Below, piece after piece: positions 19,034 to 38,686 of a stretch of 64,000 nt of DNA. The notes under the pieces are model-generated. The model saw only the letters and a list, made by a program, of their open reading frames with translations, did no database searches and was not told the DNA's origin. The translations under genes and the position numbers were made by a program. The stretch lies in the NCBI GenBank assembly GCA_018402085.1, contig JAGYJM010000002.1:1984001-2048000 (forward strand). Direction: 5' to 3'. Within the stretch, counting starts at the first letter, position 1. Each line of letters opens with the position of its first letter. This DNA is from Flavobacteriales bacterium (GTDB lineage Bacteria > Bacteroidota > Bacteroidia > Flavobacteriales_D > Sanyastnellaceae).

Positions 19034-19711
19034 ATGCAGTTTATTCGCCCTACATTCCTCACCTTGCTGTTGGTTGTGCTCTTCGTTCTCTGCGCAAAAG
19101 CGCAGGATGAAGATACAGGCCCAGACTACACTGAACAGGCCAAAGATTTTCAATGGGGATTTGTAGCCGGACTTGAGTCCGGACTCTTTACCGGAGCCTC
19201 CACCCCCACCGAAGCTTCACTGGCAAAATACGAGCATGCCTTCGGACGCATGGGTTACGGCGCATCAGTTGGAGCGTCACTGCAGTGGCGATTGAACGCC
19301 CGATGGGCCTTTCGTCCTCAAGCCATGCTCTCGGTGCTCACCACTAGGGTGAGATATGAGCAATACGGTTTTCGCCACGAAACCCACATGATCTATCCCC
19401 TTACCGCTGATATCCTCGCACACATCATCGTGAATAACCCAACTGAAAGCAGACGCCTCGGTGCTCATTTTGGTCCGGCCATTGAATTCAACATCCCTTC
19501 ACTCGATAGTCCGAGGCAGACCTCTACACCTTTCTCACTCCGGGCAGATGCCGGACTGAGCATACCTGTGAATCTCGGCATCGGCACCTTTCTGCTCGAT
19601 GTGAGCTACGGTTATTCACTCACCGATATGATCAGCGGTGAAACCCTCCTCGATCAATGGTGGGGCAACAATGGTCGCCACCGCCTGGGAGTGCGGCTTC
19701 ACCTCTACTAA
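19034..19711 (+). CDS. outer-membrane beta-barrel protein (PorT-like fold)
   Basis: 225 residues from ATG 19034; an upstream GTG/ATG would read through the REP palindrome. The signal peptide ends LCAKAQDED. The mature part has alternating hydrophobic strands with aromatic girdles (FQWGFVAGLESGLF, YGASVGASLQWRLNARWAFRPQAML, LDVSYGYSLTDM) and ends HRLGVRLHLY, with a terminal aromatic residue as in barrels. An 8-stranded barrel of unknown function is the likeliest reading. The residues at the signal-peptide cleavage site are encoded by a GATG hairpin element (19090-19109). Confidence 0.72.
   Translation: MQFIRPTFLTLLLVVLFVLCAKAQDEDTGPDYTEQAKDFQWGFVAGLESGLFTGASTPTEASLAKYEHAFGRMGYGASVGASLQWRLNARWAFRPQAMLSVLTTRVRYEQYGFRHETHMIYPLTADILAHIIVNNPTESRRLGAHFGPAIEFNIPSLDSPRQTSTPFSLRADAGLSIPVNLGIGTFLLDVSYGYSLTDMISGETLLDQWWGNNGRHRLGVRLHLY
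19090..19109 (+). repeat. GATG hairpin element copy 5 (at signal-peptide cleavage site)
   Basis: CTGCGC-AAAA-GCGCAG-GATG, perfect stem; encodes Cys-Ala-Lys-Ala-Gln-Asp at the cleavage site. Confidence 0.85.
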
Positions 19712-20173
19712 GCGGGTAACACCGTTCATCCTTAAGAAGTTGTAAAGATGACTGCCTTAACCTACCTTTCAATAAGTTGTGGAGATCACCACCCTTAGTA
19801 ACTTCTTCGACCATCCCCATGAATTTGAAGTTCGGTATGTTTGTTCTGATGAGTTGTGTGAATAGCACAGTGAACACCGTTGCACATCTTGGAACAATGA
19901 GAGTCGCCGCTGTGTTGAATTATCTGATACATGAGGGCGTAACCCGATCGAATCGAACATCCGATTCATTAAACTACCCGAATCAATGCCTGACTTGATT
20001 TTACACATGCCTGAACGCACTTTCGCTTTCACCTGGGGGGTGTTCCGAAAGACGCGAGTAGGTGCTGCGCTTGGCAAGAAGACCTCACCACCCAGACAGA
20101 CACCGCTGAAATTGAGCGAATAATCACTCGGCTCACTCTTTTGAAATACGAACAATAGTTAAACCCAGCATAA
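19712..20173. other. 462-bp intergenic stretch without recognised gene
   Basis: Short frames exist on both strands, for example 60 codons on the plus strand from 19819, but none has a signal peptide, family motif or promoter. I see no terminator hairpin with a T tract. It may hold decayed coding sequence. Confidence 0.5.
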
Positions 20174-21139
20174 ATGAACAATCAGGACATCAACATAAAC
20201 GAGATCCAGCAAACCATAAAAAAGTACTACAAGGCTGCCATACTGGTCTTAGTAGTCGGTGTGATCGGATTTGGTTCATTCTTTCAGGTAGAAGCAGAAG
20301 AAGAAGGCGTGGTGACACGCTTCGGTGAGCATGTGCGAACCGTTGAGCCCGGACTAAAGATGAAAATACCCTTCATCGAAAAAGTGTATAAGGTGCCGGT
20401 AGAACGCCAAAAAAAGCAAGAATTCGGCTTTCGCACCGAGCAGGCGGGCGTGCGCACACAATACAGCCGCACCGGTTCAGTCACGGAAGATGAAGCCATC
20501 ATGCTCACGGGAGACCTCAACCTCGCAAACGTGCAGTGGGTAGTACAATACCGTGTAAGTGACCCCTATGAGTACTTGTTTAAAGTGCGCAACCCTGACA
20601 ATACCTTGCGCGATCTCTCTGAAGCCGTGACGCGTCAGGTTGTGGGCGATCGCACCGTGAATGAAGTACTCACGATTGGCCGCGCAGAAATTGCGAGCGA
20701 GGTGAAAATTCTTCTGCAGAAAATGGCAAAAGAATACTCGCTGGGTATTGAAATCGCCCAGGTAGTATTGCAAGATATCAATCCGCCTGAATCTGTCAAA
20801 CAGGCCTTCAACGCTGTCAACGAAGCTCAGCAAGAAAGAGAAACGCTGATCAATGAGGCGAAATCAGAATACAATAAAGTGATACCGCGCGCCAGAGGGC
20901 AAGCCCTGGAGACCATTCAAAAGGCCGAAGGTTACGCAACACAGCGGGTCAACAACGCGCAGGGGGAGGTTGCCCGCTTCAACGACTTGTATGAAGAGTA
21001 CATCAGGGCACCTGAGGTGACAAAAAAGAGGATCTACCTCGAAACAATGCAGGAGGTGCTGCCAAAACTCGGTGATAAGATCATCACCTCAGAAGATGGC
21101 AACAATATGATCCCTCTCCTGAAAAAAGACCTGAACTAA
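20174..21139 (+). CDS. hflK: HflK-like SPFH/band-7 protein
   Basis: 321 residues. The short cytoplasmic N-terminus is followed by one membrane helix (AAILVLVVGVIGFGSFF) and the SPFH domain: VEAEEEGVVTRFGEHVRTVEPGLKMKIPFIEKVYKVPVERQKKQEFGF. A helical region rich in Ala/Glu (QAFNAVNEAQQERETLINEAKSEYNKVIPRARGQALE) is typical of HflK. HflK and HflC form a large cage at the membrane around FtsH and limit proteolysis of membrane proteins. The hflC gene follows directly. Confidence 0.88.
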   Translation: MNNQDININEIQQTIKKYYKAAILVLVVGVIGFGSFFQVEAEEEGVVTRFGEHVRTVEPGLKMKIPFIEKVYKVPVERQKKQEFGFRTEQAGVRTQYSRTGSVTEDEAIMLTGDLNLANVQWVVQYRVSDPYEYLFKVRNPDNTLRDLSEAVTRQVVGDRTVNEVLTIGRAEIASEVKILLQKMAKEYSLGIEIAQVVLQDINPPESVKQAFNAVNEAQQERETLINEAKSEYNKVIPRARGQALETIQKAEGYATQRVNNAQGEVARFNDLYEEYIRAPEVTKKRIYLETMQEVLPKLGDKIITSEDGNNMIPLLKKDLN

Positions 21140-21171
21140 GCGAATACATGACATCCCCGAAAAGAGAACAC

Positions 21172-22119
21172 ATGAACAAAAGAAATAAACTGATCCTTCT
21201 TACCGCCTTGGTGGTTGCTGCGATTATCGTGCTATCACAAAGTATCTACATCGTCAACGAAACCCAACAGGTGGTGATCACTCAATTCGGTAGACCAATA
21301 GGAGACGCCATCACCGAACCGGGGCTCCAATTCAAAACACCTTTCGTGCAAAAAGCGAATTTCTTCGAAAAACGCTACATGGAATGGGACGGCGACCCGA
21401 ACCAGATCCCCACAAAAGAGAAAAAATTCATCTTCGTCGATAGTTATGCCCGCTGGCAAATTACCGACCCGCTACAATTCTATAAACGACTCACCAACGA
21501 ACGAGGAGCACAAAGCAGACTCGATGATATCATTGACGGTGAAACACGTGATCAGGTAGCCAGCCACAGCCTCGAAGAAGTGGTTAGAAATACCAACCGA
21601 CAAGCAGACACAACTGCCAAAATAAGCGAGATCATTGAAGATTCACTCGCCCGAATTAAGGTAGGTAGACAAAAGATTCAAAATATGATCCAGGAAAAGG
21701 CCAATGAAGAAACCAAAGACCTCGGTATTGAAATCCTTGACTTTCGGTTTAAGCGCATCAACTACGTGGAGGATGTAAGGCAGCGCGTTTACGACCGAAT
21801 GAAGAGTGAAAGGATCCGTATTGCAGACAAATTCAGATCAGAAGGTGAAGGAGAGGCTTCAAGAATCAATGGAGAAAAAGAACGCGAACTCAACCAAATT
21901 CAATCGGAAGCATACAAAGAAGCCGAAACTATCAAGGGGAAAGCAGATGCAGAAGCAGCCCGAATTTATGCCGATGCATATAACAGATCCAGCCGTGCAA
22001 TTGAATTGTATAGCTTCATTAAAAGCATGGAGACCTTTAGCAATACCTTTGATTCTACCACCACGGTGATCCTGTCAACTGACAGCGACCTCTTTAAGTA
22101 TCTTAAGAGTATGGATTAG
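21172..22119 (+). CDS. hflC: HflC-like SPFH/band-7 protein
   Basis: 315 residues from ATG 21172, which has a purine-rich stretch just upstream and puts the membrane helix (LILLTALVVAAIIVLSQSIYIV) at the N-terminus. An ATG at 21148 would add eight polar residues and cannot be excluded. SPFH features: VNETQQVVITQFGRPIGDAITEPGLQFKTPFVQKANFFEKRYMEWDG and DSYARWQITDPLQFYKR. The coiled-coil part has SRINGEKERELNQIQSEAYKEAETIKGKADAEAARIYADAY, characteristic of HflC. Partner of the preceding gene. Confidence 0.88.
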   Translation: MNKRNKLILLTALVVAAIIVLSQSIYIVNETQQVVITQFGRPIGDAITEPGLQFKTPFVQKANFFEKRYMEWDGDPNQIPTKEKKFIFVDSYARWQITDPLQFYKRLTNERGAQSRLDDIIDGETRDQVASHSLEEVVRNTNRQADTTAKISEIIEDSLARIKVGRQKIQNMIQEKANEETKDLGIEILDFRFKRINYVEDVRQRVYDRMKSERIRIADKFRSEGEGEASRINGEKERELNQIQSEAYKEAETIKGKADAEAARIYADAYNRSSRAIELYSFIKSMETFSNTFDSTTTVILSTDSDLFKYLKSMD

Positions 22120-22276
22120 CCTATGAAAGGCTCTCCCCAAGAGAAACATATCACTTCAGAGTGAGGATGCCTCAAACAAGACAGTGAAACAATGCACCAA
22201 CCATCATAAAGGCACACACAGCAACCGCAATGTGCACAGCTTAAAAAATCCCAATCCTCAAAAAAAACAATCAACC

Positions 22277-22981
22277 TTGAACCTCGAAAACACCATAGCC
22301 CTTGTCACCGGAGGAAACTCCGGACTGGGAAAAGCAACGGCCCAATTGCTTATTGAAAAAGGCGCAAAAGTGGTCATCACCGGCCGCGACGAAAAGAAAA
22401 CCGCCGATGTAGCAGGTGAGCTCGGCGCTGTTCCCTTTCACTGCGATGTTACCAGCGACCAGGACATTCAAAAAATGTATGACTTCATCGAAGAAAAATT
22501 CGGCCGCCTCGATATCCTGATCAACAACGCAGGCATCGGCGGATGGTCAGCACTCGGTGAGATTACACGCGAAAAAATGAAGGAAGTCTATGAAGTGAAT
22601 GTCTTCGGAGCCACCATGGTCGCCAGCGGAGCCCTGCGCTTCTTCCTGAAGCAAAAATCCGGCAACATAATAAATATCGCCTCCACCGCCTCGCTCAAAG
22701 GCTACCCGCAGGGCAGTATTTATGCCTCTTCTAAATTCGCCCTTCGCGGCCTGACCCAGTGCTGGCAAGCAGAATTACGGCGAGACAATATCCGCGTCAT
22801 CCAGATCAATCCCAGCGAAGTACCCACTGCTTTCGGTGATGAAGAGAACCGCAAAGAACGTCCGATCGAAGACAAGAAACTCACGCCTCACGAAATTGCA
22901 CACACGATCATCTGCACCCTTGAAATGGACAATCGCGGATACATTCCAGAAGTCACTGTGCACGCTACCAACCCCTTTTAA
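22277..22981 (+). CDS. short-chain dehydrogenase/reductase (FabG-like)
   Basis: 234 residues if started at TTG 22277 (MNLENTIALVTGGNSGLGKATA), the distance to the cofactor motif usual for SDRs. An open frame reaches back to GTG 22184 but adds a polar His/Asn/Lys tail without homology. Classical SDR features: TGGNSGLG (NAD(P)-binding), CDVTSDQD, NNAGIGG, the catalytic Ser in NIASTASL and YASSKFAL (Tyr-x-x-x-Lys). Substrate unknown; the closest general class is 3-oxoacyl-ACP-reductase-like oxidoreductases. It lies between hflC and an AraC-type regulator. Confidence 0.85.
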   Translation: MNLENTIALVTGGNSGLGKATAQLLIEKGAKVVITGRDEKKTADVAGELGAVPFHCDVTSDQDIQKMYDFIEEKFGRLDILINNAGIGGWSALGEITREKMKEVYEVNVFGATMVASGALRFFLKQKSGNIINIASTASLKGYPQGSIYASSKFALRGLTQCWQAELRRDNIRVIQINPSEVPTAFGDEENRKERPIEDKKLTPHEIAHTIICTLEMDNRGYIPEVTVHATNPF

Positions 22982-23307
22982 TCGGTCAAAGCCACACAAA
23001 AAAGCAGAGCGCATCTTCTCCGCCTACCGCTGAACAATCAGTTATTATTGCTACCTTCAGGATCACGGCAACGTTCGGTTCAAATGCGGCGCATTGTTTA
23101 TAAAGCGTGTGCCATCGCTTGCCCCAACGCTGCATGAAGCGGTCGTTCTCACAATATGTCACAGGGCTCACTACTCCGTGTACTTTTCGCTTAGGGCCAC
23201 ATTCAGAAAAGCCTCAGACCAATACTGAACTGCGCACGACGGAAAACATAAGGCCACAGGTGTCCGGCTGTTCAGTGAAAGCAGCATAATCTTCAAAATG
23301 ACCTCCG
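22982..23307. other. 326-bp intergenic stretch upstream of AraC-type gene
   Basis: No supported gene. It includes a short GC palindromic stretch (TGCGGCGCA near 23083) and several partial open frames. I see no -7 consensus or terminator I would defend. Confidence 0.45.
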
Positions 23308-23868
23308 ATGAAGCTCTACGTCAAGTACATGGTGAGCCTGCGATGCAAAATGCTGGTTAAGGACGAACTCAATAACCTCGGGATTCGCTACGTTGTGGTT
23401 GAACTCGGTGTTATTGAAGTACTCGAAAGCATCTCAGCGGCTCAGAAAGAGCAGTTAAAAATCAATCTGCTAAAATCAGGACTCGAATTACTCGATGATA
23501 AACGCAGCATCCTGGTTGAATCCATCAAAACTACGATCATTGAAATGATCCACCACACCAATGATCTTCCAAAAATGAACTACTCCAGCTACATTAGTTC
23601 AATTCTTGGATATGACTACACCTACCTCGCCAATGTATTCTCAGAAGTCAAGGGTATCACCATTCAACAATTTATTATATTAAATAAAATTGAAAAGGTA
23701 AAAGAACTTCTCCTTTACAATGAGTTAAACCTCACCGAAATCGCTCACCGGCTCCATTACAGTAGTGTAGCGCATTTATCGAATCAATTTAAAAAGATGA
23801 CCGGACTCACTCCTACCTTCTATAAAGGCATCGCCGGTAAGCGCCGCCAAAACCTCGAAGATGTGTGA
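23308..23868 (+). CDS. small AraC-type transcriptional regulator
   Basis: 186 residues from ATG 23308. The C-terminal half is an AraC double helix-turn-helix: YISSILGYDYTYLANVFSEVKGITIQQFIILNKIEKVKELLLYNELNLTEIAHRLHYSSVAHLSNQFKKMTGLTPTFYK. The N-terminal 80 residues (LYVKYMVSLRCKMLVKDELNNLGI...VELGVIEV) form a small alpha/beta domain reminiscent of ferredoxin-like heavy-metal-associated folds, without a CxxC motif. It could sense a small ligand or partner. It probably controls the neighbouring CsbD-like and SPFH genes (inference from position). Confidence 0.82.
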   Translation: MKLYVKYMVSLRCKMLVKDELNNLGIRYVVVELGVIEVLESISAAQKEQLKINLLKSGLELLDDKRSILVESIKTTIIEMIHHTNDLPKMNYSSYISSILGYDYTYLANVFSEVKGITIQQFIILNKIEKVKELLLYNELNLTEIAHRLHYSSVAHLSNQFKKMTGLTPTFYKGIAGKRRQNLEDV

Positions 23869-23970
23869 TACATGTAACTTCTCTACAGCTTAATGTAACG
23901 CAGCAACGGTAAGTTAGTGCCAACTTTGCTGTGTTGTGAGAACGAACTCGCAGTAAAACCCTCAAAAATT

Positions 23971-24195
23971 ATGGACAATACCAAAAACACGCATTCCGGC
24001 GATTTTAAAATTACCGGCAACTGGTCTGACCAGTCGAAAGCGCTGAAAAGCAAGTATGCGCAACTTACCGACGAGGATCTGAAATTTGAGGCAGGCAAAG
24101 AAAACGACCTCCTTAAAAAGGTCGAAACGCGCTTGAATAAAAAGCGTGAAGAGGTGATCAACATCATCAAAAAGGGCCAGCCCAAAGCGGTTTAA
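23971..24195 (+). CDS. CsbD-like general stress protein
   Basis: 74 residues from ATG 23971; an earlier in-frame start at 23917 adds 18 residues unlike the family. Contains FKITGNWSDQSKALKSKYAQLTDEDLKFEAGKENDLLKKVETRLNKKREEV, matching the CsbD pattern of short amphipathic helices (NW..lKgklk..y..LTddDl...eGk.deL). CsbD proteins accumulate under general stress; their mechanism is unknown. CAACTTTG at 23927-23934 resembles a -7 element. A terminator follows at 24225-24257. Confidence 0.82.
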   Translation: MDNTKNTHSGDFKITGNWSDQSKALKSKYAQLTDEDLKFEAGKENDLLKKVETRLNKKREEVINIIKKGQPKAV

Positions 24196-24224
24196 CCGAA
24201 AGTTTAAACCTCAAAACACAAATG

Positions 24225-24257
24225 GACAAGCCCTCAACAGGCTTGTCTATTTTTTTA
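24225..24257 (+). terminator. intrinsic terminator after csbD-like gene
   Basis: GACAAGCC (24225-24232) pairs with GGCTTGTC (24240-24247), followed by TA and seven T. It separates the stress gene from the stomatin-like gene. Confidence 0.85.
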
Positions 24258-24290
24258 AGTATCATTTCTCTAGCTGAAAGCAAACCAATT

Positions 24291-25184
24291 ATGGACTCAA
24301 ATTACCTCTACCTCATCATTGCCATGATGATCATTTTCATCTCTGGCATCCGAATCGTAAGGCCAACTCACAAAGGGTTGATCGAACGGCTTGGTAAATA
24401 CCGCAAACTGGCTACGCCGGGCTTTCACTGGATCATTCCGCTGGTAGACCGCATGTATCTCGTCAATATGACCGAGCAAATGGTTGACGCTGAACCACAA
24501 GAAATCATTACCAATGACAACCTGAATGCCAGCGTAGACGCCCAGGTCTACTTTCGTGTGAAGTCAGATGAGAAAAGCGTCAAAGGTTCTACATATGACG
24601 TGAACGATTACCAATACCAAATCGTAAACCTCGCACGAACTACCTTGCGGAACATCATCGGAACACTCACCCTTAAGTCTGCCAACAGCGAACGTGGCAA
24701 AATCAACATGGAGCTCCACCAGACACTTCATAAAGAAACCAAAAACTGGGGCATCGAGATCATCCGCACTGAACTGAAGCAAATTGACCCGCCTGCGGAT
24801 GTACAAGAAACCATGAACAAGGTGGTGAAAGCAGAAAACGAAAAAATTGCCGCAATTGACTCTGCCACTGCCGCCGAAACAGTGGCTGATGGTATCAAAC
24901 GTGCCAAAATAAAAGAAGCTGAAGGCTTTAAGCGCGCCAAAATACTGCACGCCGAAGGCGAAGCCGATGCTATAAAACTTGTGAACGAAGCCGCCGACAA
25001 ATACTTTATCGGCAATGCACAAATGCTGCGAAAACTAGAGGCCATGGAAACAGCCCTGCAAGACAATACCAAAATCATTGTCCCAAACGGCTCTGACCTC
25101 GTAAATGTCATGGGCGAAATGGCCGGGGTGATCCCAATGAAGACCCAAAAAACCACCGCAGCTATCTCTAGAAACAACATCTGA
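24291..25184 (+). CDS. stomatin/QmcA-like SPFH membrane protein
   Basis: 297 residues from ATG 24291; a longer frame from 24222 would cross the terminator T tract. N-terminal helix (YLYLIIAMMIIFISGI) then an SPFH domain: RPTHKGLIERLGKYRKLATPGFHWIIPLVDRMYLVNMTEQMVDAEPQEIITNDNLNASVDAQVYFRV. A coiled-coil region rich in Ala/Glu/Lys follows, then a LVNVMGEMAGVIP-like tail. This is the third SPFH protein within 5 kb. No NfeD partner gene lies beside it. Probable membrane microdomain scaffold. Confidence 0.87.
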   Translation: MDSNYLYLIIAMMIIFISGIRIVRPTHKGLIERLGKYRKLATPGFHWIIPLVDRMYLVNMTEQMVDAEPQEIITNDNLNASVDAQVYFRVKSDEKSVKGSTYDVNDYQYQIVNLARTTLRNIIGTLTLKSANSERGKINMELHQTLHKETKNWGIEIIRTELKQIDPPADVQETMNKVVKAENEKIAAIDSATAAETVADGIKRAKIKEAEGFKRAKILHAEGEADAIKLVNEAADKYFIGNAQMLRKLEAMETALQDNTKIIVPNGSDLVNVMGEMAGVIPMKTQKTTAAISRNNI

Positions 25185-25237
25185 AGACTGACCTCAACAG
25201 GCTCAGTGTTAAATGAACATGCAGTCATAAAGTACCT

Positions 25238-25369
25238 ATGGTCAAAAAGACCGAAAAGACTCCCAAAGGCACAAGCCTTGCAGCACGTGTGCAAATGCTA
25301 AACGACTTGATACTAAAGCAGGAATCACTTGCTTCGGAATATGAAAAACGAATTCAACATGGAAAATAA
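25238..25369 (+). CDS. small hypothetical protein, 43 aa
   Basis: An ATG frame of 43 codons (MVKKTEKTPKGTSLAARVQM at the N-terminus, ending EYEKRIQHGK) closes 11 nt inside the next small gene. Basic, probably helical and soluble. The overlap suggests translational coupling. I recognise no family. Confidence 0.5.
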   Translation: MVKKTEKTPKGTSLAARVQMLNDLILKQESLASEYEKRIQHGK

Positions 25370-25538: not shown

Positions 25539-25608
25539 CTTTACGCCCGGTAGAACTCTCTGCCGCATGATTGCTTGACCTCAACCTAATCAGCACAAGT
25601 CAATCCCT

Positions 25609-25628
25609 CATCCTGCGCTTTTGCGCAG
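25609..25628 (-). repeat. GATG hairpin element copy 6 (intergenic)
   Basis: On the minus strand CTGCGC-AAAA-GCGCAG-GATG; the same stem as copies 5 and 11 but outside any gene. Confidence 0.85.
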
Positions 25629-25851: not shown

Positions 25852-25855
25852 ACAC

Positions 25856-26557: not shown

Positions 26558-26559
26558 CC

Positions 26560-27285
26560 ATGTCTGCGCGCACAAGCATCATTATCCCGGTGTACAACGC
26601 AAGGCAACTTATCACCGACTGCTTAAAGAGCCTTGCGCCATTGACTTCCAAGGCTGAAATCATTCTATGCGACGGTGGCTCTGATGATGACACGCGCCAA
26701 CTGGCCGAATCCTTCGGGCTCGCCAATCTCAAGATCGTTGATACCACCGGAGATAAAGGCATTTACGATGCCATGAACCGCGGTATTGATGCTGCCTCAG
26801 GTGAGTACCTTTATTTCATGGGGGCAGATGATCGTTTGCACAGCGCAAAAGCGCTGGATGTGATCACCCAAAATACAAAGGCAAAAGTGCTGCTGGCAGG
26901 GGTAAGACAATCTGAGCCGCGGCACCCAAAGGTGCCTGAATGGTACACGCCTAAGTGGTCAGGCGAACTACTGCTTCGCAATTGTGTGCACCACCAGGGA
27001 GCCCTCTACCACCGCAGTGTTTTTAAGAACTACCGTTACCCGGTCAATTTCAGCATCCTCGCCGACTACCACCTCAACCTGAAGCTCTGGCTTGAAGGAG
27101 TGAGCGTTGATCACCACGACGTGCACCTCGCAACCTGCGGATCTGAAGGGGTTTCGAAGAAGTTCACCGCATCGCTCTACCGCGAAGAATGGGCGGTTAA
27201 GAGATCTATCCTACCCTTTCAACACCTTTGGTGGCAGCCGCCCTGGCTGGTACTGAAGTTCTTGCGAAAGCAACGACTCAAGTGA
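26560..27285 (+). CDS. family 2 glycosyltransferase
   Basis: 241 residues. GT-A fold: SIIIPVYNARQLI at the N-terminus, IILCDGGSDDDTR (in place of the usual DDGSTD), DKGIYDAMNRGIDAASGEYLYFMGADDRL with the DxD-equivalent ADD near residue 89, then HHQGALYHRSVF. Close to the WcaA/colanic-acid type. Donor and acceptor unknown. The 3' end overlaps the convergent GT4 gene by 8 nt. A GATG hairpin element (26841-26860) is encoded as Ser-Ala-Lys-Ala-Leu-Asp directly after the ADDRLH motif. Confidence 0.88.
   Translation: MSARTSIIIPVYNARQLITDCLKSLAPLTSKAEIILCDGGSDDDTRQLAESFGLANLKIVDTTGDKGIYDAMNRGIDAASGEYLYFMGADDRLHSAKALDVITQNTKAKVLLAGVRQSEPRHPKVPEWYTPKWSGELLLRNCVHHQGALYHRSVFKNYRYPVNFSILADYHLNLKLWLEGVSVDHHDVHLATCGSEGVSKKFTASLYREEWAVKRSILPFQHLWWQPPWLVLKFLRKQRLK
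26841..26860 (+). repeat. GATG hairpin element copy 7 (in GT2 gene)
   Basis: CAGCGC-AAAA-GCGCTG-GATG, perfect stem. Confidence 0.85.
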
Positions 27286-28396
27286 GCTGACAAGCTTCAA
27301 GCATTTGCTCAATCACCTCCGACTCTTTCTCCCATCGAAAGTCTTCCTGGGCGCGGGCCAACCCTTCCATCCACCGCTTTCGCGGTGCTGAAAGCACCTC
27401 GCGTAAAGCCGACGAAATGCCTTCGGGAGACCAGTCTTCAATGACACTGCCAATGCCATAATTCTCAACCACGCTGCTTACTTCAGGCATCGGTGAAGCC
27501 ACCACAGGGATACCGGCATGAATGTAATCAAAGAGCTTATTCGGGAGACTGTAGTAATAGTTAAAGTGTGTACCCTTGTCAAGGCTCAGTCCGACATCAG
27601 CGCTGCGGGTGAAGGTCACAAGGCGCTCATAAGGCTGTTTCGGTAAAATGGTGAGGCGCGATTCGAGCTGCAAGGAGGTGCGCAACCGCTTGGCTTCGAG
27701 CCATTCTTCACCCGCGCCAACCAGCAATAAGTGAAGCTCCGGCAATTGAGCCAAAGCCTTGACCGCCTCTACTACCCCCCGATCTTTATCCATGAACGCT
27801 CCCTGCAAAATCGCCAGTTGACCTTCAGGCAAACCGAGGGCCGCTCGCGAAGGCTGTTGAGCGGGCAAAGCTTTAACTGAAGGCACATTGCGTACCACCT
27901 GCACCGGTACCTGATACTTATCGCGGTAGATGCGTGCGATGCTCTCGTTCACTGTGATGACGTGCTTCAATTTCGGAAAGATGCGACGTTCAATCTGCGT
28001 CCAAACCCACTTCGGAAAAGGCCTGTTGGTTAGTCCGGCAGCCTCTGTAAAATATTCATGGCTGTCATAAATAAGCGGTATGCGCAGTTGTCGGGAAGAC
28101 AGGTATGCCGGCCACAGCGTGTCGAGGTCGTTACTCCAGATGGCGTCCCAGTCAGCGGCACGACTCCGAAGAAACCGGGCGAGACCGCGCTGCAACGAAG
28201 CATAAAACAACGCACCCGTGTGATACCTGAGCTTTAAACGCACCGTCTCGTACGATCGATCTATGGGAGCCGAATCAGGCAATTCGCGGCCAACCAATGT
28301 AACCTCAAGACCTGCCTTCTGCAATACCTCACAGGTCTTGTGAACCCGTTGGTCATGGGTCAGGTCATTGGATACAAGGACAGCGATTCGCTTCAC
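27278..28396 (-). CDS. family 4 glycosyltransferase (GT-B)
   Basis: 372 residues. N-terminal Rossmann half with IAVLVSNDLTHDQRVHKTCEVLQKAGLEVTLVG, a middle with VITVNESIARIYRDKY, and a C-terminal half with LPEGQLAILQGAF, LLLVGAGEEW and NKLFDYIHAGIPVVASPMPEVSSVVENYGIGSVIED, the nucleotide-sugar site (E-x7-E region). Retaining transfer to a lipid-linked or surface glycan is expected. The start overlaps the exonuclease stop by 4 nt. A GATG hairpin element (27368-27387) lies near the 3' end. Confidence 0.86.
   Translation of the reverse strand: MKRIAVLVSNDLTHDQRVHKTCEVLQKAGLEVTLVGRELPDSAPIDRSYETVRLKLRYHTGALFYASLQRGLARFLRSRAADWDAIWSNDLDTLWPAYLSSRQLRIPLIYDSHEYFTEAAGLTNRPFPKWVWTQIERRIFPKLKHVITVNESIARIYRDKYQVPVQVVRNVPSVKALPAQQPSRAALGLPEGQLAILQGAFMDKDRGVVEAVKALAQLPELHLLLVGAGEEWLEAKRLRTSLQLESRLTILPKQPYERLVTFTRSADVGLSLDKGTHFNYYYSLPNKLFDYIHAGIPVVASPMPEVSSVVENYGIGSVIEDWSPEGISSALREVLSAPRKRWMEGLARAQEDFRWEKESEVIEQMLEACQLT
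27368..27387 (-). repeat. GATG hairpin element copy 8 (in GT4 gene)
   Basis: On the minus strand CACCGC-GAAA-GCGGTG-GATG, perfect stem with a GNRA-type loop; read as Pro-Arg-Lys-Arg-Trp-Met, a different frame from the Ala-Lys-Ala copies. Confidence 0.82.
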
Positions 28397-29223: not shown

Positions 29224-29298
29224 AAAGCGCAAATTAAAGCAATTGGCCGTACCTAACCACCCAAGGTGTGCGAACACGACGACCGGGGGGGGAGACGA

Positions 29299-29338
29299 AT
29301 CGACTTATCGACCGATCGACCCATCGACTTATCGACTA
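29299..29338 (+). repeat. 8-bp tandem repeat ATCGACNN x5
   Basis: ATCGACTT, ATCGACCG, ATCGACCC, ATCGACTT, ATCGACTA in succession. Related arrays lie at 36316-36363 and, reduced, near 56978. Confidence 0.9.
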
Positions 29339-29346
29339 ATGGGCAT

Positions 29347-29455
29347 TTCGGGAAACCGGGAAACGGGGAAACCGGGAAACCGGGAAACGGGGAAACCGGG
29401 AAACCGGGAAACGGGGAAACCGGGAAGCCGGGAAACGGGGAAACGGGGAAGCGGC
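29347..29455 (+). repeat. 9-bp tandem repeat GGGAAACCG/GGGAAACGG
   Basis: About eleven 9-bp units with a 27-bp higher-order pattern (two CC-type units, one GG-type). Similar short runs lie at about 29573-29597, 36365-36378 and 56992-57023. Confidence 0.9.
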
Positions 29456-29644
29456 CGGAATGCAGCGCATACTTGCGCTGCCTCTAGTCGTTCAAGTACG
29501 CGCAGTGTGGCGGCGGCTATTGCCGCCGGTCTTCCGCAGCGAAGCGCATAGACCTATGGACGCGTTCGTGAAACTGGGAAACTGGGAAACTGGGAGAATA
29601 TAAAGTGCTGAATAATAACCAATGAATAATAAATCAGCAATCTG

Positions 29645-32023: not shown

Positions 32024-32239
32024 CTGCGCAAATTTGGCAAGTTGACGTAAAAATAGGTCAATTCAACGAACTATACCAAGCGCCAACAAGACGGATATCA
32101 GGAAGATGCCAACAGAAGAAGGACACGGAGGCCTCAATTGTTCAGGAGACCTGCAATGCGCGGAGGTGCGAGAGATTAAGCTCAGGCAACGCATACACGC
32201 TATCTCTCTGATCAATAAAAATTTACCGCTGCCTTGCTC

Positions 32240-33643
32240 TTACCAGAGCGCACGCTCGGGATCGAACTGCTCGAGGTAATCTGCTACCCTTCGTACAAAG
32301 GTTCCGCCGAGCATTCCGTCAACCACGCGGTGGTCATAGCTGTGCGAAAGGAACATGAAGTGTCGCACACCGATCATATCACCCTGCGGGGTTTCAATCA
32401 CCGCCGGCTTCTTGCGAATAGCACCTAGTGCCATAATGGCTACCTGAGGCTGGTTAATGATCGGAGTTCCCATCACATTACCGAAAGTACCTACGTTTGA
32501 AATGGTGTACGTACCTCCCGAAATCTCATCCGGAGAAAGTTTGTTCGTGCGGGCACGATCCGCGAGGTCATTTACCGTCTTGGCCAAACCAATCAAATTG
32601 TAGCGGTCTGCATTCTTGATCACCGGTACAATCAAATTGCCGCTCGGCGTGGCTGCCGCCATCCCCACGTTGATATCTTTGCGGTAAATCAGTTTATCGC
32701 CGTCAACCGAGATGTTGATGTTCGGGAAGTCTTTGATCGCACGCGCTATAGCCTCCACGAAGATCGGAGTGAAGGTCAGCTTCTCGCCTTCGCGCTGCTG
32801 AAACTCCTTCTTCATTTTATTCCGCCAGTTCACAAGATTCGTCACATCAGCTTCTACGAATGAAGTCACATGAGGCGAAACATGCTTAGACATCACCATA
32901 TGCTCGGCGATCATCTTGCGCATACGATCCATTTCAACGATCTCGTCGTTCGGACCAACCGTAACCTTGGGTGCCTTGATAGCAGGAGTAGCAGAAACAA
33001 CAGGCGATTTTTCTGTCGCCTTAGGTGCCGCCTTCGTTTGTCCGTTACTCGCAACTACCGGTGCTTTCATCGGTGCAGACTTCCGCTGAGCGATATAAGC
33101 AAGCATATCTTTCTTGGTCACACGACCGTCTGACCCCGAGCCTTCAATTTGCTCGAGTTCTTCCATCGCGATGCCTTCTTCTTTAGCAATACTCCGCACC
33201 AGCGGGCTGTAGAATCGTCCTGACGGACCCTTTCGCTCTACTTCGCTGCCGCCTTTCACTCCTTCAAGGGGGGCACTTACGGCCTCTACGACTTCTTGAG
33301 CAGGTACTTCTTCCCTTTCAGGCGCTTTTTCAGACGCCGCGGAACTTGTCCCGACTTGTCGGGAAGCGGCGGATGAAGACCCGTCAGGTGCCGCAGTATC
33401 TCCGTCAGTACTGAAAATGGCGATCGGTTGACCGACTTCCACAACATCATCCTGGTTCACCAGGATTTTTACAATCACTCCATATTCAGGTGCCGGAACC
33501 TCGGAATCCACCTTATCGGTAGCGATTTCGACGATCGGCTCGTCTGCTTCAACCGTCTGGCCTTCTTCAATAAGCCATTTGATAATGGTCGCCTCAGCGA
33601 CGCTTTCACCCATTTTTGGAAGCAGAATCTCTGTTTGTGCCAT
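32240..33643 (-). CDS. 2-oxo acid dehydrogenase E2 (dihydrolipoamide acyltransferase)
   Basis: 467 residues. Lipoyl domain at the N-terminus (LLPKMGESVAEATIIKW; lipoylated Lys in IATDKVDSEVP near residue 44), a Ser/Ala/Glu linker (about 90-135), the E3-binding domain (RFYSPLVRSIAKEEGIAMEEL...GSDGRVTKKDM) and a catalytic domain ending SHSYDHRVVDGMLGG (His and Asp of the active site). It moves acyl groups from lipoamide to CoA. Succinyl, acetyl or branched-chain specificity cannot be told; no E1 or E3 gene is adjacent. A GATG-type element with a 25-nt loop lies in the linker (33335-33375). Confidence 0.92.
   Translation of the reverse strand: MAQTEILLPKMGESVAEATIIKWLIEEGQTVEADEPIVEIATDKVDSEVPAPEYGVIVKILVNQDDVVEVGQPIAIFSTDGDTAAPDGSSSAASRQVGTSSAASEKAPEREEVPAQEVVEAVSAPLEGVKGGSEVERKGPSGRFYSPLVRSIAKEEGIAMEELEQIEGSGSDGRVTKKDMLAYIAQRKSAPMKAPVVASNGQTKAAPKATEKSPVVSATPAIKAPKVTVGPNDEIVEMDRMRKMIAEHMVMSKHVSPHVTSFVEADVTNLVNWRNKMKKEFQQREGEKLTFTPIFVEAIARAIKDFPNINISVDGDKLIYRKDINVGMAAATPSGNLIVPVIKNADRYNLIGLAKTVNDLADRARTNKLSPDEISGGTYTISNVGTFGNVMGTPIINQPQVAIMALGAIRKKPAVIETPQGDMIGVRHFMFLSHSYDHRVVDGMLGGTFVRRVADYLEQFDPERALW
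33335..33375 (+). repeat. GATG hairpin element copy 9 (long-loop form, in E2 linker)
   Basis: CGCCGC (33335-33340) pairs with GCGGCG (33366-33371), followed by GATG. The loop is 25 nt instead of 4 and carries its own stem CCCGAC-TT-GTCGGG. Orientation is opposite to the gene. Confidence 0.7.
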
Positions 33644-33710
33644 AATCGAAATCTCCGTTTGAGTGGTGCAAAATTAGTCAATTTACGATAGGCCTCCGCC
33701 ATGATGATCA

Positions 33711-35654
33711 TCAATCATCTCCGAGATAGGCGAAGAAGCGGTACATCATACTGAGGTCTTTTATAAATCGGTAGTCTCGCGCATAGATCACATTCAGCCG
33801 CTGCATCATTTCGTCAGTGCGCTGACCTTCAGGGATGCCTGTTGCCGGATTGATCACGCCGCTTGACACAGAAGGCAGCTCTTGCGCAGCCTTTGAAGTT
33901 GCGTAGCCTACCCAGGTGCGATCACCGAACAATACCCTGAAGAGGTTCAGGATGTAGTGCCCCTTCTTTCGCACAAACCAGATGCTGACAGGCAGGGTCA
34001 CCAGCAAAAACAGTGCACTGAGCAGGTCAAACACACGCTTCTTGCGCCGGTTGGCCGGCTTGTGGATGCCGTTCGTCTCCAACATAAAAAGGTCACCGCT
34101 CGTATCAATGCTGTTGCTGCCGATCATGTAGAGCGTATCCGGAGGAGCGATCTTGAAGTCAACCCCGGTGTTCGAATAACGTCCCATCAAATCAATGATC
34201 TCCCCTGCTGGCACGTCTCTGCTGCTGAATACCACTTCATCCACTCGGTGCACACGGATGATCTCAGCCAGCTGATCCACCGTGCCAAACTGCCCTTTTG
34301 CCACCTGTTTACCCGGGGCTACCGAAATCACCGTCGGCAGGGTCGCTTTCGCCTGCCCGATAAGGGCTTCAATGCGCTCAGTCTCATCAGGCTCAGCCAC
34401 CACGGCAAAATGTTTGTTGCCGCTGCCTTCCCAGGCAAATTGCTCTTTGTTCAGTAGGTGAAAAACCACGCGGCTCAACGCAAAATAGACCACCGACCAA
34501 ATAGAGCCGATTAGCACCAGTGCCCGCGAAAAACGAAGGTTTTCAGGCAATAAGGAATAGGCCAGTAAGATCAGTACACTGCCGATCAGCACGCCGCGCA
34601 AAATGCGCAGCATCGACAGCGGACGATCATATCCTCCTGAAAAGAATACCGAAAGCATCCACGCCAGGGTGTAGCTGCTGAAGGCATTGCGAACGAGCGT
34701 TGCATCAAAGATTTTATGTTGTACTTCCGCATAGTATTCTTGCAGCAACCATAGCCCACCGAAAAGCAACACCCCATCCGTGAAGGGAAGCCATAGGCGC
34801 TTCACGAAGCGGTTGAGTATGGCAAGTGCGGCCCGCGCATAGATCGCCAGGTTGATCAGGGTGGTGAAAGCCTGCGCATTTCGCGCCGAAAAGTGCTTCT
34901 TGGCGAATATGACCATCGCCCGGTAAAACACAAACACATAGTTCAGACTGCCTTTCTTGGTACTTTCTCCTTTGTAATGAATAATGGTAGTATCCGGCAG
35001 GTACCAGTTGTCCCAACCGCCGGTAACAATCCGCCAACTAAGGTCGATGTCTTCGCCGTACATGAAGAACGACTCATCCAGCAATCCAACCTGATCGAGT
35101 GCGTCTTTACGCATCAGCATAAATGCCCCGCTGAGGATTTCCACTTCATTGGCTTCATCTTCCTCGAGGTAGCCCATGTAGTAGTGGTTGAAACGCTTTG
35201 ATTTCGGGAACAGGCGGTAGACGCCGGCGATCTTGCAGAAAGCCACCCAGGGTGTCGGTAAACCACGCTTGCTTTCCGGTAAGAACTTACCTTTCCCATC
35301 AACCATACGTACACCGAGTCCTCCTGCCTTCGGGTGATCATCCATAAAATCAATCACTTTCCGAAAAGTATCTTCCTCAACAACGGTATCGGGGTTCAGC
35401 AACAAGACATACTCGCCGTTAGACGCTCGGATCGCCTGGTTGTTGGCGCGGGAGAAGCCGACATTGTCTTTGTTACGCACCAGCTTCACCTCGGGAAAGC
35501 GCTCTTCAACCATGGCGCAGGAACCATCTACACTGGCATTGTCAACCACCCACGTCTCTACCTGCAGCTCCTCGCTGGCACGCCGCACCGAAAGCAGGCA
35601 CTGCTCAAGAAAGTGCTCTACATTGTAATTGACGATGATGACGCTGAGCTTCAT
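33711..35654 (-). CDS. GT2 glycosyltransferase fused to membrane and degenerate sugar-transferase region
   Basis: 647 residues. Residues 1-250 are a rhamnosyltransferase-like GT2 ([68 protein letters not shown]). About four membrane helices follow (residues ~280-400), then a Rossmann-like domain ([19 protein letters not shown]...[20 protein letters not shown]) like that in front of WbaP-type transferases. The C-terminus has the first helix of a bacterial sugar-transferase domain ([23 protein letters not shown]) and its last part ([15 protein letters not shown]...[18 protein letters not shown]), but the catalytic middle is absent. The start overlaps recR by 4 nt. Role: surface polysaccharide synthesis, acceptor unknown. 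Confidence 0.82.
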
Positions 35655-36271
35655 TGACTGCCGCGTGCGTTTTCGTAAGGTAAGCGTTGCATAATCGACC
35701 GGCCAAGGGTCACTTCATCCGCATATTGTAACTCATCGCCAATGGCCACGCCACGAGCAATCGCGGTCACATTGACATTCAAAGGTGACAATTTACGGTA
35801 GAGGTAGAATGCGGTGGTTTCCCCTTCCATGGTGGTGCTGAGCGCAAAGATGACTTCATTCACTTGACCAGACTCCACCCTGCTCACCAGTGAGGGGATA
35901 TGCAGGTCATTCGGTCCTACCCCATCCATCGGTGAGATCACCCCGCCAATAACGTGATAAGTGCCACGGTATTGCTCGGTCGCCTCTATTGCCATCAACT
36001 CGCGAATGCTCTCCACCACGCAAACGGTACCCGCATCCCGACGGTCGTTACTACAAACTGAACAACGCGAATGATCTGACAGGTTATGACACACTTCACA
36101 TTCTCGAATGCCTGATTTCAGGTCGGTAAAGGCTCTCGAAAACCGATTCACCTGTTCCTCATCACGCGAAAGCAAATGCAACACCAGGCGCAAAGCAGTG
36201 CGCTTTCCGATGCCCGGCAGTGAAGCCATCTGTTCTACGGCCTCCTCTATGAGTTGAGATGAATATTGCAC
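35651..36271 (-). CDS. recR: recombination mediator RecR
   Basis: 206 residues, full length. Helix-hairpin-helix at the N-terminus ([20 protein letters not shown]), four-Cys zinc finger [16 protein letters not shown] (about 58-73), Toprim domain ([33 protein letters not shown]) and the C-terminal Walker-B-like part ([25 protein letters not shown]). RecR works with RecO/RecF to load RecA at gaps. The 3' end overlaps the GT2-fusion gene by 4 nt. Confidence 0.96.
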
Positions 36272-36315
36272 GCCGCAAAGCTAAGGGATTCGCAAATGCA
36301 ATGATCTACGGCCGT

Positions 36316-36363
36316 ATCGACCAATCGACTTATCGACTCATCGACCTATCGACCTATCGACAA
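36316..36363 (+). repeat. 8-bp tandem repeat ATCGACNN x6
   Basis: Six units (ATCGACCA, ATCGACTT, ATCGACTC, ATCGACCT, ATCGACCT, ATCGACAA), followed by TTTGGGAAACTGGGAGG as at the other two loci. Confidence 0.9.
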
Positions 36364-36423
36364 TTTGGGAAACTGGGAGGTAGGGAGGAAGCGAGGTAGG
36401 GAAACAGTTGGAATCAGGTACCT

Positions 36424-36447
36424 GTAGGGACGCGATTTATCGCGTCC
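36424..36447 (+). repeat. GTAG-footed hairpin (REP-like, second type)
   Basis: GTAG at 36424-36427, then GGACGCG-ATTTAT-CGCGTCC: a perfect 7-bp stem. The GTAG foot is the tetranucleotide expected of REP sequences. Confidence 0.7.
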
Positions 36448-36462
36448 GCCTGTCGCTAATCT

Positions 36463-36600
36463 CCACTCATGCAATCAGCAATTCTGCCGTCTAAGACCCC
36501 TCACCCGAAGCCGCTACGCGGCATCGGGAGCTCCCCTCATTTGAGGGGAGCCTTTAACTTAGTTGTAAGCCCCACAGGCGTCCTGAAAGCATACCGAGGG
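36463..36600 (+). repeat. ~140-bp dispersed intergenic element, copy 2
   Basis: Matches 29645-29785. The hairpin is GCTCCCCTCA-TT-TGAGGGGAGC (36530-36551), a perfect 10-bp stem whose loop-proximal pairs differ from copy 1 yet remain complementary. CCTTTAA follows in both. Confidence 0.85.
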
Positions 36601-36603
36601 CCT

Positions 36604-38235
36604 CTACTTCCGCACCGTCTTCAAATTCAACATATTCACCCCGTTCGTCTCAAAATAAACCACCTCCCTTCTGACAAAATGACTCACCTGATCATAAAAC
36701 AGCGGAATCACGGGCGATTCAGCCATCACGAGGCTATCCATTTTGCGGTAGAGGGGAATGCGGTCTTTGTGGTCTGGAAAGGATGCCGCAGTAAGGTACA
36801 AACTGTCAAAAGTGGCGTTCCGGAAGTGGGTGTAGTTCGGGCCTTTCGGACAAAAATTTTCGCTGTAGAACAAAGCCAGGAAATTCTCGGCATCAGCATA
36901 GTCGGCGAGCCATGATTTGCGGAAGAGCATCGCCTGTGACTTCGACACTTTTTCGCGGTGTGCGGCTCCTGGTAGAACTTCCACCTCCACCTCTACGCCG
37001 ATCTGCTGCCACTGGTGTTGCAAATATTCGCATAAATCAACGTAGTCGCCGGTGGTAGACAGGGCCACCGGCGGTATCCCCTGACCGTTCGGATAGCCGG
37101 CACTGTCAAGCAGATCGCGGGCATAGCCGGGGTCGTAGCTCACGGCAGCCACACGATCACCACCAGATGAAGGCAATCCTTGCGGAATAAACCCGCCTGA
37201 AGCCTCGAATACCGCATTGTTTCGAAGGTAGCGCACCATCTTCTTGCGATCGATGGCGAAGGTTAGTGCCCTCCTCACCCTGCGATCACTGAAGGGATGC
37301 TGCTGCACCTGCGGTAAATCGGGATCCACAAGGATGCCGATGTAGTCGGTTTTGATGAACGGACGACGCTGGAAACGGATCTTGTTGGTAAAGCCCTCGC
37401 GCAAGGTGCCGCTGTTCGTTAGCAACTCATTGGTGTAGGCCGGATGCAAACCCGACATCATATCAAACTGCCCCTGAAGAAGTCCGAGAAACTCGGCGCC
37501 CATGTCGCGCACGAAGCTGATCTTGACCGCATCGAGGTAGGGCAGCACCTGACCTTCCGCATCTTGCTGCCAGAAACGCTCGTTTCGGTGAAAGACCAAG
37601 GCGACATCCTCGAGCCAGAAGGCAAATTTGAACGGGCCCGCACCGATCGGATGTGCACGGAAATCCGGTCCGTAATGCTCAACCACTTCGCGCGGAACCA
37701 CATTGGCGTACTGCGTAGTCAACATCCCAAGGAAGGGCGGAAAAGCATCTTTCAAACGCAGCACCAGGGTGCTGTCATTCACTGCCTCCATCCCGCCATT
37801 TCTGGCGGAACGTAAACGATCAAAAATCCACTTTCCGGGCGAAGCCGTTCCGGGATCTATGATTCGACTGAAACTGTACACGAAATCCTGCGCCGTGACG
37901 AAACGATTCAGGCTGTCAGCAAAAAGGGGTGAGGGATGAAAACGCACATCGGTGCGGAGGTGAAAGGTGTAAGTACGCCCGCTGTCGCTGACCTCCCATG
38001 ACCGTGCGATCAGTGGTTGAATGGTCAGGCTACTGTCAAGCTCTACGAGTCCGTCAAACAGTTGGTTCACCGCCCACATGTTTTCCAGATTGCGGGCAAA
38101 AGCAGGATCAAGCGAAGTAATGCCGTTTGACTCGTTATACCGAAAAACCGTTCGGTCATCACGGCGGTCATTGTCTCCGCCGCACGCGGCAAGCATCGAC
38201 GCAATCAAAAAATAAATGAGGATCCGCAGCTTCAT
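36604..38235 (-). CDS. peptide ABC transporter substrate-binding lipoprotein (SBP family 5)
   Basis: 543 residues. Lipoprotein signal IASMLAAC gives Cys near residue 19. DppA/OppA-type features: GITSLDPAFARNLENMWAVNQLFDGLVELDSSLTIQPLIARSWEVSDSGRTYTFHLRTDVRFH and VRRALTFAIDRKKMVRYL. The family binds oligopeptides or similar ligands in the periplasm for an ABC importer; no permease genes lie nearby, so it is an orphan here. A GATG hairpin element (37789-37808) is read as Ala-Arg-Asn-Gly-Gly-Met. Confidence 0.9.
   Translation of the reverse strand: MKLRILIYFLIASMLAACGGDNDRRDDRTVFRYNESNGITSLDPAFARNLENMWAVNQLFDGLVELDSSLTIQPLIARSWEVSDSGRTYTFHLRTDVRFHPSPLFADSLNRFVTAQDFVYSFSRIIDPGTASPGKWIFDRLRSARNGGMEAVNDSTLVLRLKDAFPPFLGMLTTQYANVVPREVVEHYGPDFRAHPIGAGPFKFAFWLEDVALVFHRNERFWQQDAEGQVLPYLDAVKISFVRDMGAEFLGLLQGQFDMMSGLHPAYTNELLTNSGTLREGFTNKIRFQRRPFIKTDYIGILVDPDLPQVQQHPFSDRRVRRALTFAIDRKKMVRYLRNNAVFEASGGFIPQGLPSSGGDRVAAVSYDPGYARDLLDSAGYPNGQGIPPVALSTTGDYVDLCEYLQHQWQQIGVEVEVEVLPGAAHREKVSKSQAMLFRKSWLADYADAENFLALFYSENFCPKGPNYTHFRNATFDSLYLTAASFPDHKDRIPLYRKMDSLVMAESPVIPLFYDQVSHFVRREVVYFETNGVNMLNLKTVRK
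37789..37808 (-). repeat. GATG hairpin element copy 10 (in SBP gene)
   Basis: On the minus strand CCGCCA-GAAA-TGGCGG-GATG, perfect stem closed by A-T. A stem sequence unlike the other copies. Confidence 0.82.
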
Positions 38236-38254
38236 CGCTGCGAAGATAAGATGA

Positions 38255-38686
38255 TTAGCCGCCCATTACGTCGCGTATGACGGCCGCGCCTTCGGGGTCA
38301 TAATAACGGTCAGGCTTACGTCCGCCCGAAGCAGTATACCGCTCCCACGATCCGACCTTGACGCCAAACTCATAGCGACCGCGTGATTCGATTTGTCCGC
38401 TCGGATGATAAAATACGAACTCTCCGTGCTCAAAGAGTTTGTTTTGTGCTTTTTTGTAGCTCCCGATATACTTGACGCGATCGCTTGCGTCATAAACGGT
38501 GCATGTATAAAGGTCGTCACTGACCTTTTCCATTTCTCGCCGATATACAGCCTTTCGTTTCTTAGTGTCGTTGAGCTGTGCGTCCAGGTAGTGCACCTCA
38601 TCCTGCGCTTTTGCGCAGTCAGAAAAAGAGAGCAATGGAAGCAGGAACAAAATAGACAGGATATATGTAACTCTAATGCGTATCAT
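38255..38686 (-). CDS. secreted MORN/YwqK-like repeat protein
   Basis: 143 residues from ATG 38686, where a signal peptide begins (IRVTYILSILFLLPLLSFSDCAKAQDE); the longer frame to 38791 would run into the divergent receptor gene's leader. The mature part has repeats of MORN/YwqK type (KYIGSYKKAQNKLFEHGEFVFYHPSGQIESRGRYEFGVKVGSWERYTASG). Function unknown; a periplasmic or surface repeat protein. The cleavage-site residues Cys-Ala-Lys-Ala-Gln-Asp are encoded by a GATG hairpin element (38599-38618), the same hexapeptide as in the unrelated barrel protein at 19034. Confidence 0.72.
   Translation of the reverse strand: MIRIRVTYILSILFLLPLLSFSDCAKAQDEVHYLDAQLNDTKKRKAVYRREMEKVSDDLYTCTVYDASDRVKYIGSYKKAQNKLFEHGEFVFYHPSGQIESRGRYEFGVKVGSWERYTASGGRKPDRYYDPEGAAVIRDVMGG
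38599..38618 (-). repeat. GATG hairpin element copy 11 (at signal-peptide cleavage site)
   Basis: On the minus strand CTGCGC-AAAA-GCGCAG-GATG, identical to copy 5. Confidence 0.85.

Follow-up and report, generated by a model that had tools for sequence, protein, structure and literature searches.

The 64,000-nucleotide stretch analysed here (the window: positions 1,984,001 to 2,048,000 of contig JAGYJM010000002.1, from the Flavobacteriales bacterium assembly GCA_018402085.1) carries scattered copies of a short DNA hairpin followed by an unpaired GATG, here called the GATG hairpin. The copies belong to a family that is constrained at the level of the fold, stands in both orientations and leaves no insertion footprint at most sites. 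We tentatively favour, as an argument by analogy, the reading that these hairpins may form a genome-wide DNA signal, defined by fold and spread by substitution and drive, as with the uptake sequences of Haemophilus. An earlier note on this stretch had reported that an identical 20-bp copy encodes Cys-Ala-Lys-Ala-Gln-Asp (CAKAQD) at the end of the signal peptide in two unrelated exported proteins, and this was reproduced. The 20-mer CTGCGCAAAAGCGCAGGATG, composed of the arm CTGCGC, the loop AAAA, the arm GCGCAG and the tail GATG, is present exactly at 19090–19109 (+) in the gene of an outer-membrane beta-barrel protein (19034–19711, +; PF13568, Pfam OMP_b-brl_2 over the cut-off) and at 38599–38618 (−) in the gene of a MORN-like exported protein (38255–38686, −; Pfam MORN_2 below the cut-off). 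In both proteins CAKAQD directly follows the hydrophobic N-terminal segment. A third identical copy is intergenic (25609–25628, −).

The hairpin family is defined by its fold

In the 3.775-Mb genome (hereafter G000; the relatives G001–G003 are without the GATG hairpin motif) the exact 20-mer has 68 matches, whereas its reversed control has 0. The 20-mer is one stem variant of a larger, fold-defined family. The detailed sample comprised 1.004 Mb of G000 (27% of the genome), made up of the window and further stretches. The family follows the grammar C-N5-(AAAA, GAAA or AGAA)-N5'-G, then GATG, with a T-rich tract on the 5' side that is clearest between genes; the stem is 6 bp long and near-free in sequence apart from the outer C-G pair, and the 3' GATG is unpaired. 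The definition of a copy varied slightly, giving 193 copies in 824 kb and 228 in 1.004 Mb when the C-G outer pair was required, and the 228 use 63 different arms, 38 of them singletons. Stem pairing is 6/6 at 222 sites, 5/6 at 6 and 4/6 at 2. The perfect class was found 0 times both in a Markov-simulated 304 kb and in 160 kb of two same-genus relatives, where 5/6 pairs occurred 1 and 2 times, respectively; the six near-misses in G000 are therefore not above background. The tails are GATG (221), GATA (13), GATT (5) and GATC (2). Five oligonucleotides, of which four were copies and one a reverse complement, all adopted this exact hairpin when folded as single-stranded DNA (−5.1 to −8.6 kcal/mol).

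Two probe patterns, both covering common stems only, were used on the whole genome. The broader one, GCRAAAGCNNNGGATG, has 406 matches in G000 (211 forward, 195 reverse; reversed control 0), and a second, tighter one has 229 (125 and 104 by strand). Strand use is near-equal in all five sampled segments, with no orientation bias. The density of the sample, 0.23 per kb, extrapolates to about 860 copies genome-wide. Spacing looks random, with a coefficient of variation (CV) of 0.98 in a 424-kb segment, and 16 gaps between neighbours in the 1.004-Mb sample are below 200 bp. At intergenic copies T makes up 60% of the ten bases 5' of the stem against a 26% background; at least 6 T in 10 nt stand 5' of the stem at 40 of the 63 intergenic copies and after GATG at 5 of the 63. 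An intrinsic terminator was ruled out, as the T-run precedes the hairpin instead of following it. A chance origin was likewise rejected, since CTGCGCWWWWGCGCAG with at most two mismatches gave 6 matches against 0.48 expected.

Copies stand in both orientations, in and between genes

Genes were called by a purpose-written codon-score script, and a few placements vary between runs (58611, 58887). In total, 63 of the 228 copies are intergenic (28%, against 12.5% non-coding DNA) and 165 lie in genes, 115 of them sense and 50 antisense. One reading frame holds 97 of the 115 sense copies (sense frame 2), which mostly reads x-A-K/E-A-x-D; the others fall in antisense frames 2 (29), 1 (20) and 0 (1) and in sense frames 1 (13) and 0 (5). 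The choice of loop goes with the codon: of 88 copies in sense frame 2, 50 have AAAA, giving Lys, and 36 have AGAA, giving Glu, whereas between genes AGAA accounts for 2 of 46. Between co-directional genes of the 824-kb set, 17 of 24 copies are antisense and 7 sense. Antisense copies are thus common both in genes and between co-directional genes, which argues for a role at the DNA rather than the RNA level.

Clusters of copies were also observed. A CTDxxACN repeat protein (loci L056–L057, G000 C2:2127899–2130528) holds eight hairpin copies, six at 153-nt spacing, most of which align ungapped with hairpin-free repeats in G001 and G002. Three same-orientation hairpins stand 45 bp apart within one intergenic region (L035, C2:1907190–1907299).

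Signal-peptide ends are hot spots that predate the hairpin

Signal-peptide ends are hot spots for hairpin copies. Signal peptides were judged by hydrophobicity and homologues; by a simple hydrophobicity rule, 17 of the 165 in-gene copies lie where a hydrophobic N-terminal segment ends, against 1.6 expected. The CTGCGC stem is concentrated there, with 12 of its 16 in-gene copies at signal-peptide ends (Fisher p = 1.8e-11), seven reading CAKAQD and five, in antisense, SCAFAQ. The barrel and MORN-like cases are therefore two of twelve in 27% of the genome, and the suggestion of the earlier note that copies are found in places that tolerate them is supported.

The homologues indicate what was at these sites before. 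In the fetched loci outside G000, Ala/Ser/Cys-Gln stands at the signal-peptide end in 12 of 13 barrel N-termini, 6 of these 13 homologues being below 26% identity and the Ala-Gln of one (L168) being taken from the N-terminus rather than from an aligned column, and in 18 of 18 MORN N-termini, the MORN loci covering the 20 best matches only (50 of the 60 genomes had matches). The barrel site reads VCLWAQDDD in G001 against LCAKAQDED in G000, and the MORN homologues have SAQSQD, or VKAQD in one. Scanning the fetched barrel and MORN loci revealed no hairpin at the signal-peptide sites outside G000; one locus (L179) has an unrelated partial match away from the gene start. As hairpin-free homologues keep Ala/Ser/Cys-Gln, the cleavage sites predate the hairpin. 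The earlier note had named hairpin-free homologues conserving CAKAQD by descent as what would refute it, and this is largely what the homologues show: Ala-Gln-Asp is older (as is Cys, in the barrel protein of this genus), although the full hexapeptide is not conserved and Ala-Lys is new.

Copies within genes appear to be written in place

We compared in-gene copies with orthologues from 600 kb of G002 and 60 kb of G001, at no less than 40% identity spanning the copy; 22 of the 165 qualified, ten copies in the CTDxxACN Cys-rich repeat family having been dropped from the count. In the scored zone 14 sites had no net change in length, 1 had +1, 4 had +2, 2 had +4 and 1 had −2, and the +6 or +7 residues expected from a 20-nt insertion were seen in this zone at 0 of the 22. 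These lengths do not support the element acquisition proposed in the earlier note, with one possible exception at 41398, discussed below. At the 14 ungapped sites, the copies match the 20 nt of the orthologue at a level of 0.50, whereas in-frame shifted controls reach 0.27 and the flanks 0.585. The copy at 6362–6381 (−; arm CGTTGA, loop AAAA) is an example: its rare arm and its loop are common to G001, 17 of the 20 nt are equal to the orthologue, and the sole protein change is Glu to Asp (VEKSTD, against VEKSTE in G001). From these comparisons, the copies appear to have been mostly written in place inside genes rather than inserted. The parts of the hairpin match the orthologue unevenly in the first 19 sites, where the 3' arm (0.61) and the tail (0.55) are near the flank level (0.57) and the 5' arm (0.48) and loop (0.37) are lower. 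In the 14 cleaner sites, after repeat paralogues had been taken out and orthologue DNA added, the asymmetry is weak, 0.55 against 0.45 (sign-flip p = 0.27).

The family is found in one species among the genomes searched

The broader pattern GCRAAAGCNNNGGATG has 0 matches in both same-genus genomes, 0–2 in 57 other relatives searched and 0–5 per genome in 394 other genomes of the phylum sample. The tighter pattern was found in none of 398 other genomes of the order, a set that contains the same-genus ones. The GATG hairpin family is thus found in one species only, among the genomes searched. For one protein of the window, 80 named relatives were kept out of at least 590, and nearly all of them carry the label Bacteroidota. 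A phage origin was rejected, as the exact 20-mer occurs in 0 viral contigs of the viral collection and a degenerate form once each in 13. Whether relatives use a different dialect of the hairpin was examined in 3–20 kb stretches of 20 relatives, 380 kb of G002 and 60 kb of G001, with no comparable fold family found; the test is weak, because of two 20-kb G000 controls one had only 2 family copies and the other none among the top listings. The main recurrent hairpins of G001 and G002 are GTAG-tagged, clustered and similar to repetitive extragenic palindromic (REP) elements. No hairpin family of this kind, with free stems, was found in the titles and abstract openings of the top literature matches, a search whose coverage mostly excludes subscription journals.

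Further copies and repeats in the window

The earlier note had also mentioned seven further copies reading x-Ala-(Lys/Glu)-Ala-x-Asp, and all seven were recovered. Three have the arm CGCCGC with the loop AAAA and read AAKAAD, at 5666–5685 (+, sense), at 41398–41417 (+, sense, adjoining a segment missing from relatives) and at 58611–58630 (+), the last being sense in one gene-calling run and antisense in a short open reading frame (ORF) in another. The same arm with the loop AGAA reads AAEAAD at 15196–15215 (−, sense; AADAAE in G001). The sense copies at 26841–26860 (+; CAGCGC, AAAA) and 62278–62297 (+; CGAAGC, AAAA) read SAKALD and EAKASD, and the seventh, near 62113, is imperfect (5/6 pairs), with its frame worked out by hand. 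VEKSTD at 6362 and GVKTPD at 56182–56201 (+, sense; CGGCGT, GAAA) are variants of this reading.

The remaining copies are placed differently. Those at 27368–27387 (−; CACCGC, GAAA) and 37789–37808 (−; CCGCCA, GAAA) are sense in another frame; that at 61728–61747 (−; CGATGT, GAAA) is antisense within a lipoprotein-like N-terminus; that at 11751–11770 (+; CCGCGT, AAAA) is intergenic; and that at 58887–58906 (−; CCGCGC, GAAA) is intergenic in one gene-calling run and antisense in a short ORF in another. A near-member at 14493–14515 (CTGCGC, loop GAAA, GCGCAG) is followed by GAAT in place of GATG. Site 9657, which has no C-G outer pair and 15–16 of 20 nt in common with relatives, was counted as chance.

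Other repeats were noted along the window. GTAG-tagged hairpins have varied stems, with G000 examples near window 36424–36447 and C2:1305914–1306604; four of those in G000, at 230-bp spacing, lie about 2.4–3.1 kb from a Y1 transposase gene. Another palindrome family, in which YTAC follows GCGCACANTGCANTGTGCGC, is found at 11797, 11841, 18974, 53234, 53275, 58315, 58379 and 61613, one copy being just upstream of the barrel gene; in 824 kb it has 12 exact matches. The opposite strand of one member reads GTAG-GCGCACACTGCAGTGTGCGC, so it resembles a GTAG-tagged REP. Units 8 bp long, CGGGAAAC-like or ATCGACYT-like, form arrays at 29278–29458, 36295–36413 and 56978–57026. Eight copies of a 408–414 bp tandem unit, perhaps encoding a large repeat protein, fill 39–3206. 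A 44-bp sequence at 43116–43159, the end of the ORF 41204–43159, recurs at 47048–47091 and 52182–52225, just past the stops of two paralogue ORFs of 1244–1246 aa.

A proposed DNA signal read by structure, and its alternatives

If the GATG hairpin is a genome-wide signal, it would be read as single-stranded DNA, because pairing alone is fixed. Copies would be favoured by a drive, for example biased import or recombination of self DNA during transformation; imperfect stems are at background and yet proteins are bent to fit, which argues for drive or strong selection for the perfect form. Protein constraint would then determine the sites and the stems of the copies, which would explain CTGCGC at signal peptides, where the ancestral Ala-Gln-Asp codons already match the 3' arm and tail.

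The closest parallels are the uptake signal sequences and DNA uptake sequences (USS/DUS). In the available part of their paper, Redfield et al. describe USS as unbiased in orientation, anomalously strong in consensus and flanked by AT-rich DNA; they place 65% of the copies in genes and report that USS arose by substitution rather than insertion (PMC1626085). In the available text of Bakkali the over-representation of the H. influenzae sequence drops 92-fold at one mismatch (PMC1939737). The GATG hairpins resemble these systems, as far as those texts go, in their many dispersed, lineage-specific copies, mostly in genes and with no orientation bias (PMC1626085, PMC1939737), in the excess of perfect over mismatched copies (222 against 6 stems), in the signs of substitution (14 of 22 sites at net 0; identity 0.50 against 0.27) and in an AT-rich flank (60% T upstream, against 26%, at intergenic copies). 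They differ in what is fixed, which in USS/DUS is a core and here is the pairing, the loop, the outer C-G and GAT(G), with 63 arms among 228 copies, and also in the placement of the T-tract on the 5' side. USS/DUS are moreover defined by preferential uptake, whereas the GATG hairpin is known here from sequence alone, and by membership it is not a USS or DUS. Possible, though doubtful and again drawn from analogy, is a more specific version in which a protein that reads single-strand hairpins would favour import or recombination of DNA carrying hairpins of near-any stem, a self-recognition code by DNA shape.

Several observations weigh against reading the hairpin as such a signal. Known uptake receptors read double-stranded sequence, and we know of no hairpin-reading one. 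ComEC, the only such component looked for, is present in G000 but equally in the motif-less G001–G003, so its presence does not discriminate. The density of 0.23 per kb is below the approximately 1 per kb quoted for USS/DUS, and the random-looking spacing (CV 0.98) differs from the somewhat regular spacing reported for USS in the part of that literature available. At 41398 the +2 is cut by the zone, and relatives are without at least 13 residues right after the copy, so an insertion is possible there. Orthologous DNA is only 65–78% identical, and at this identity block replacement filtered by selection may account for the ungapped sites.

Among the alternatives, a REP-like element is unlikely, though mechanistically attractive. 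Its single-stranded hairpins would be bound and dispersed by an IS200/TnpAREP-type HUH (Y1) enzyme, and GATG, or CATC on the opposite strand, would serve as the guide tetranucleotide. The available part of PMC8266576 describes group 3 TnpAREP activity as lost on stem mismatch, tolerant of changes in stem sequence and dependent on defined loop bases; these requirements, and the reading of perfect stems of fairly free sequence, fit the grammar of the GATG hairpin. REPs, in the accessible text of PMC3733652, are 20–40 bp palindromes with an unpaired tetranucleotide at one end, and a hairpin of about 20 bp with an unpaired end tetranucleotide, high copy number and presence in few species is similar to REPs and their associated tyrosine transposases (RAYT). 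One Y1_Tnp gene is present in G000, and a crude scan found 45 GTAG-tagged REP-like hairpins in 1.004 Mb of G000, 15 in 600 kb of G002 and 8 in 60 kb of G001, so REP-like systems do operate in the genus. However, the Y1 gene pairs more naturally with the GTAG hairpins. No full GATG copy lies within 1.4 kb of the gene (a GATA-tailed one is about 0.6 kb away), its tyrosine motif is YLRKQ rather than the Y(I/V)xxNP type tabulated for TnpAREP classes, and G001–G003 have Y1 genes without the GATG repeat. The tag is neither GTAG nor CGTC. Compared with REP/RAYT as described in the same text (PMC3733652), the GATG hairpins are mostly intragenic and mostly single, with no repeat-flanked transposase gene and no insertion signature. 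They fall outside the REP/RAYT definitions, and the GTAG hairpins are a separate family in G000. A host chromosome signal also seems unlikely. In this view the hairpin would be a Chi-like site where replication, repair or recombination factors bind or are loaded, and it would be maintained through its effect on cell fitness and not by a drive acting through transfer. Such a signal would explain the dispersal on both strands, the background level of imperfect stems, the general lack of a footprint and, acting at the DNA level, the free orientation. Many replication-linked motifs show strand bias, unlike the GATG hairpins, which have none within any of the five segments; absence from same-genus relatives would be odd for a core function, and copy-by-copy selection at about 860 sites would demand strong effects.

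The other explanations are less probable. Snap-back mutation, in which a polymerase switches template and copies the GATG-proximal arm upstream, would give a perfect hairpin in one event, with stems as varied as the targets; we consider it improbable. It accounts for perfect pairing, free stems and unchanged length, and the 3' arm and tail at flank level in the first 19 sites are as it predicts, but this asymmetry is weak in the cleaner sites, the fixed loop, fixed outer C-G and T-tract are left unaccounted for, and at 6362 the ancestral parts are the 5' arm and loop. Very improbable is the view of the earlier note that a mobile element was inserted and then domesticated as protein sequence: the occurrence of the same 20-mer in unrelated genes and the missing segment beside 41398 speak for it, while the 14 ungapped sites of 22, the ancestral Ala-Gln(-Asp) at cleavage sites and the 63 arms speak against it. 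The Rickettsia palindromic elements (RPE), cited in the available part of PMC3733652, are likewise palindromic DNA translated within genes; RPEs are described as insertions, however, whereas most GATG copies, 41398 excepted, leave gene length unchanged. Hardly credible is an mRNA hairpin acting in processing or regulator binding. The sense excess in genes (115 against 50) would suit it but comes from one frame, as protein tolerance would give, and the antisense copies, in genes and between co-directional genes (17 against 7), contradict it.

Implications of a possible fold-defined signal

The genome-wide driven motifs known to us are fixed words. Only the fold is fixed here: hundreds of perfect hairpins with varied stems stand in working genes of one species, mostly without an insertion footprint, and protein sequence, signal-peptide cleavage sites included, is bent to suit DNA structure. 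If true, a code by shape would be an uptake-sequence system that k-mer searches cannot see, able to use stems that suit the protein, such as CTGCGC (Ala-Gln-Asp). For Riemerella columbina, a different organism and a member of the Flavobacteriaceae, preference for its own DNA has been reported, and in the available part of that paper k-mers of up to 10 bp were counted and their role was left open by the authors (PMC7965970); a free-stem hairpin would be hard to detect by such counting. The finding suggests that other self-DNA signals, for instance in Flavobacteriaceae, could escape k-mer counting, and it offers a fold-based search instead.

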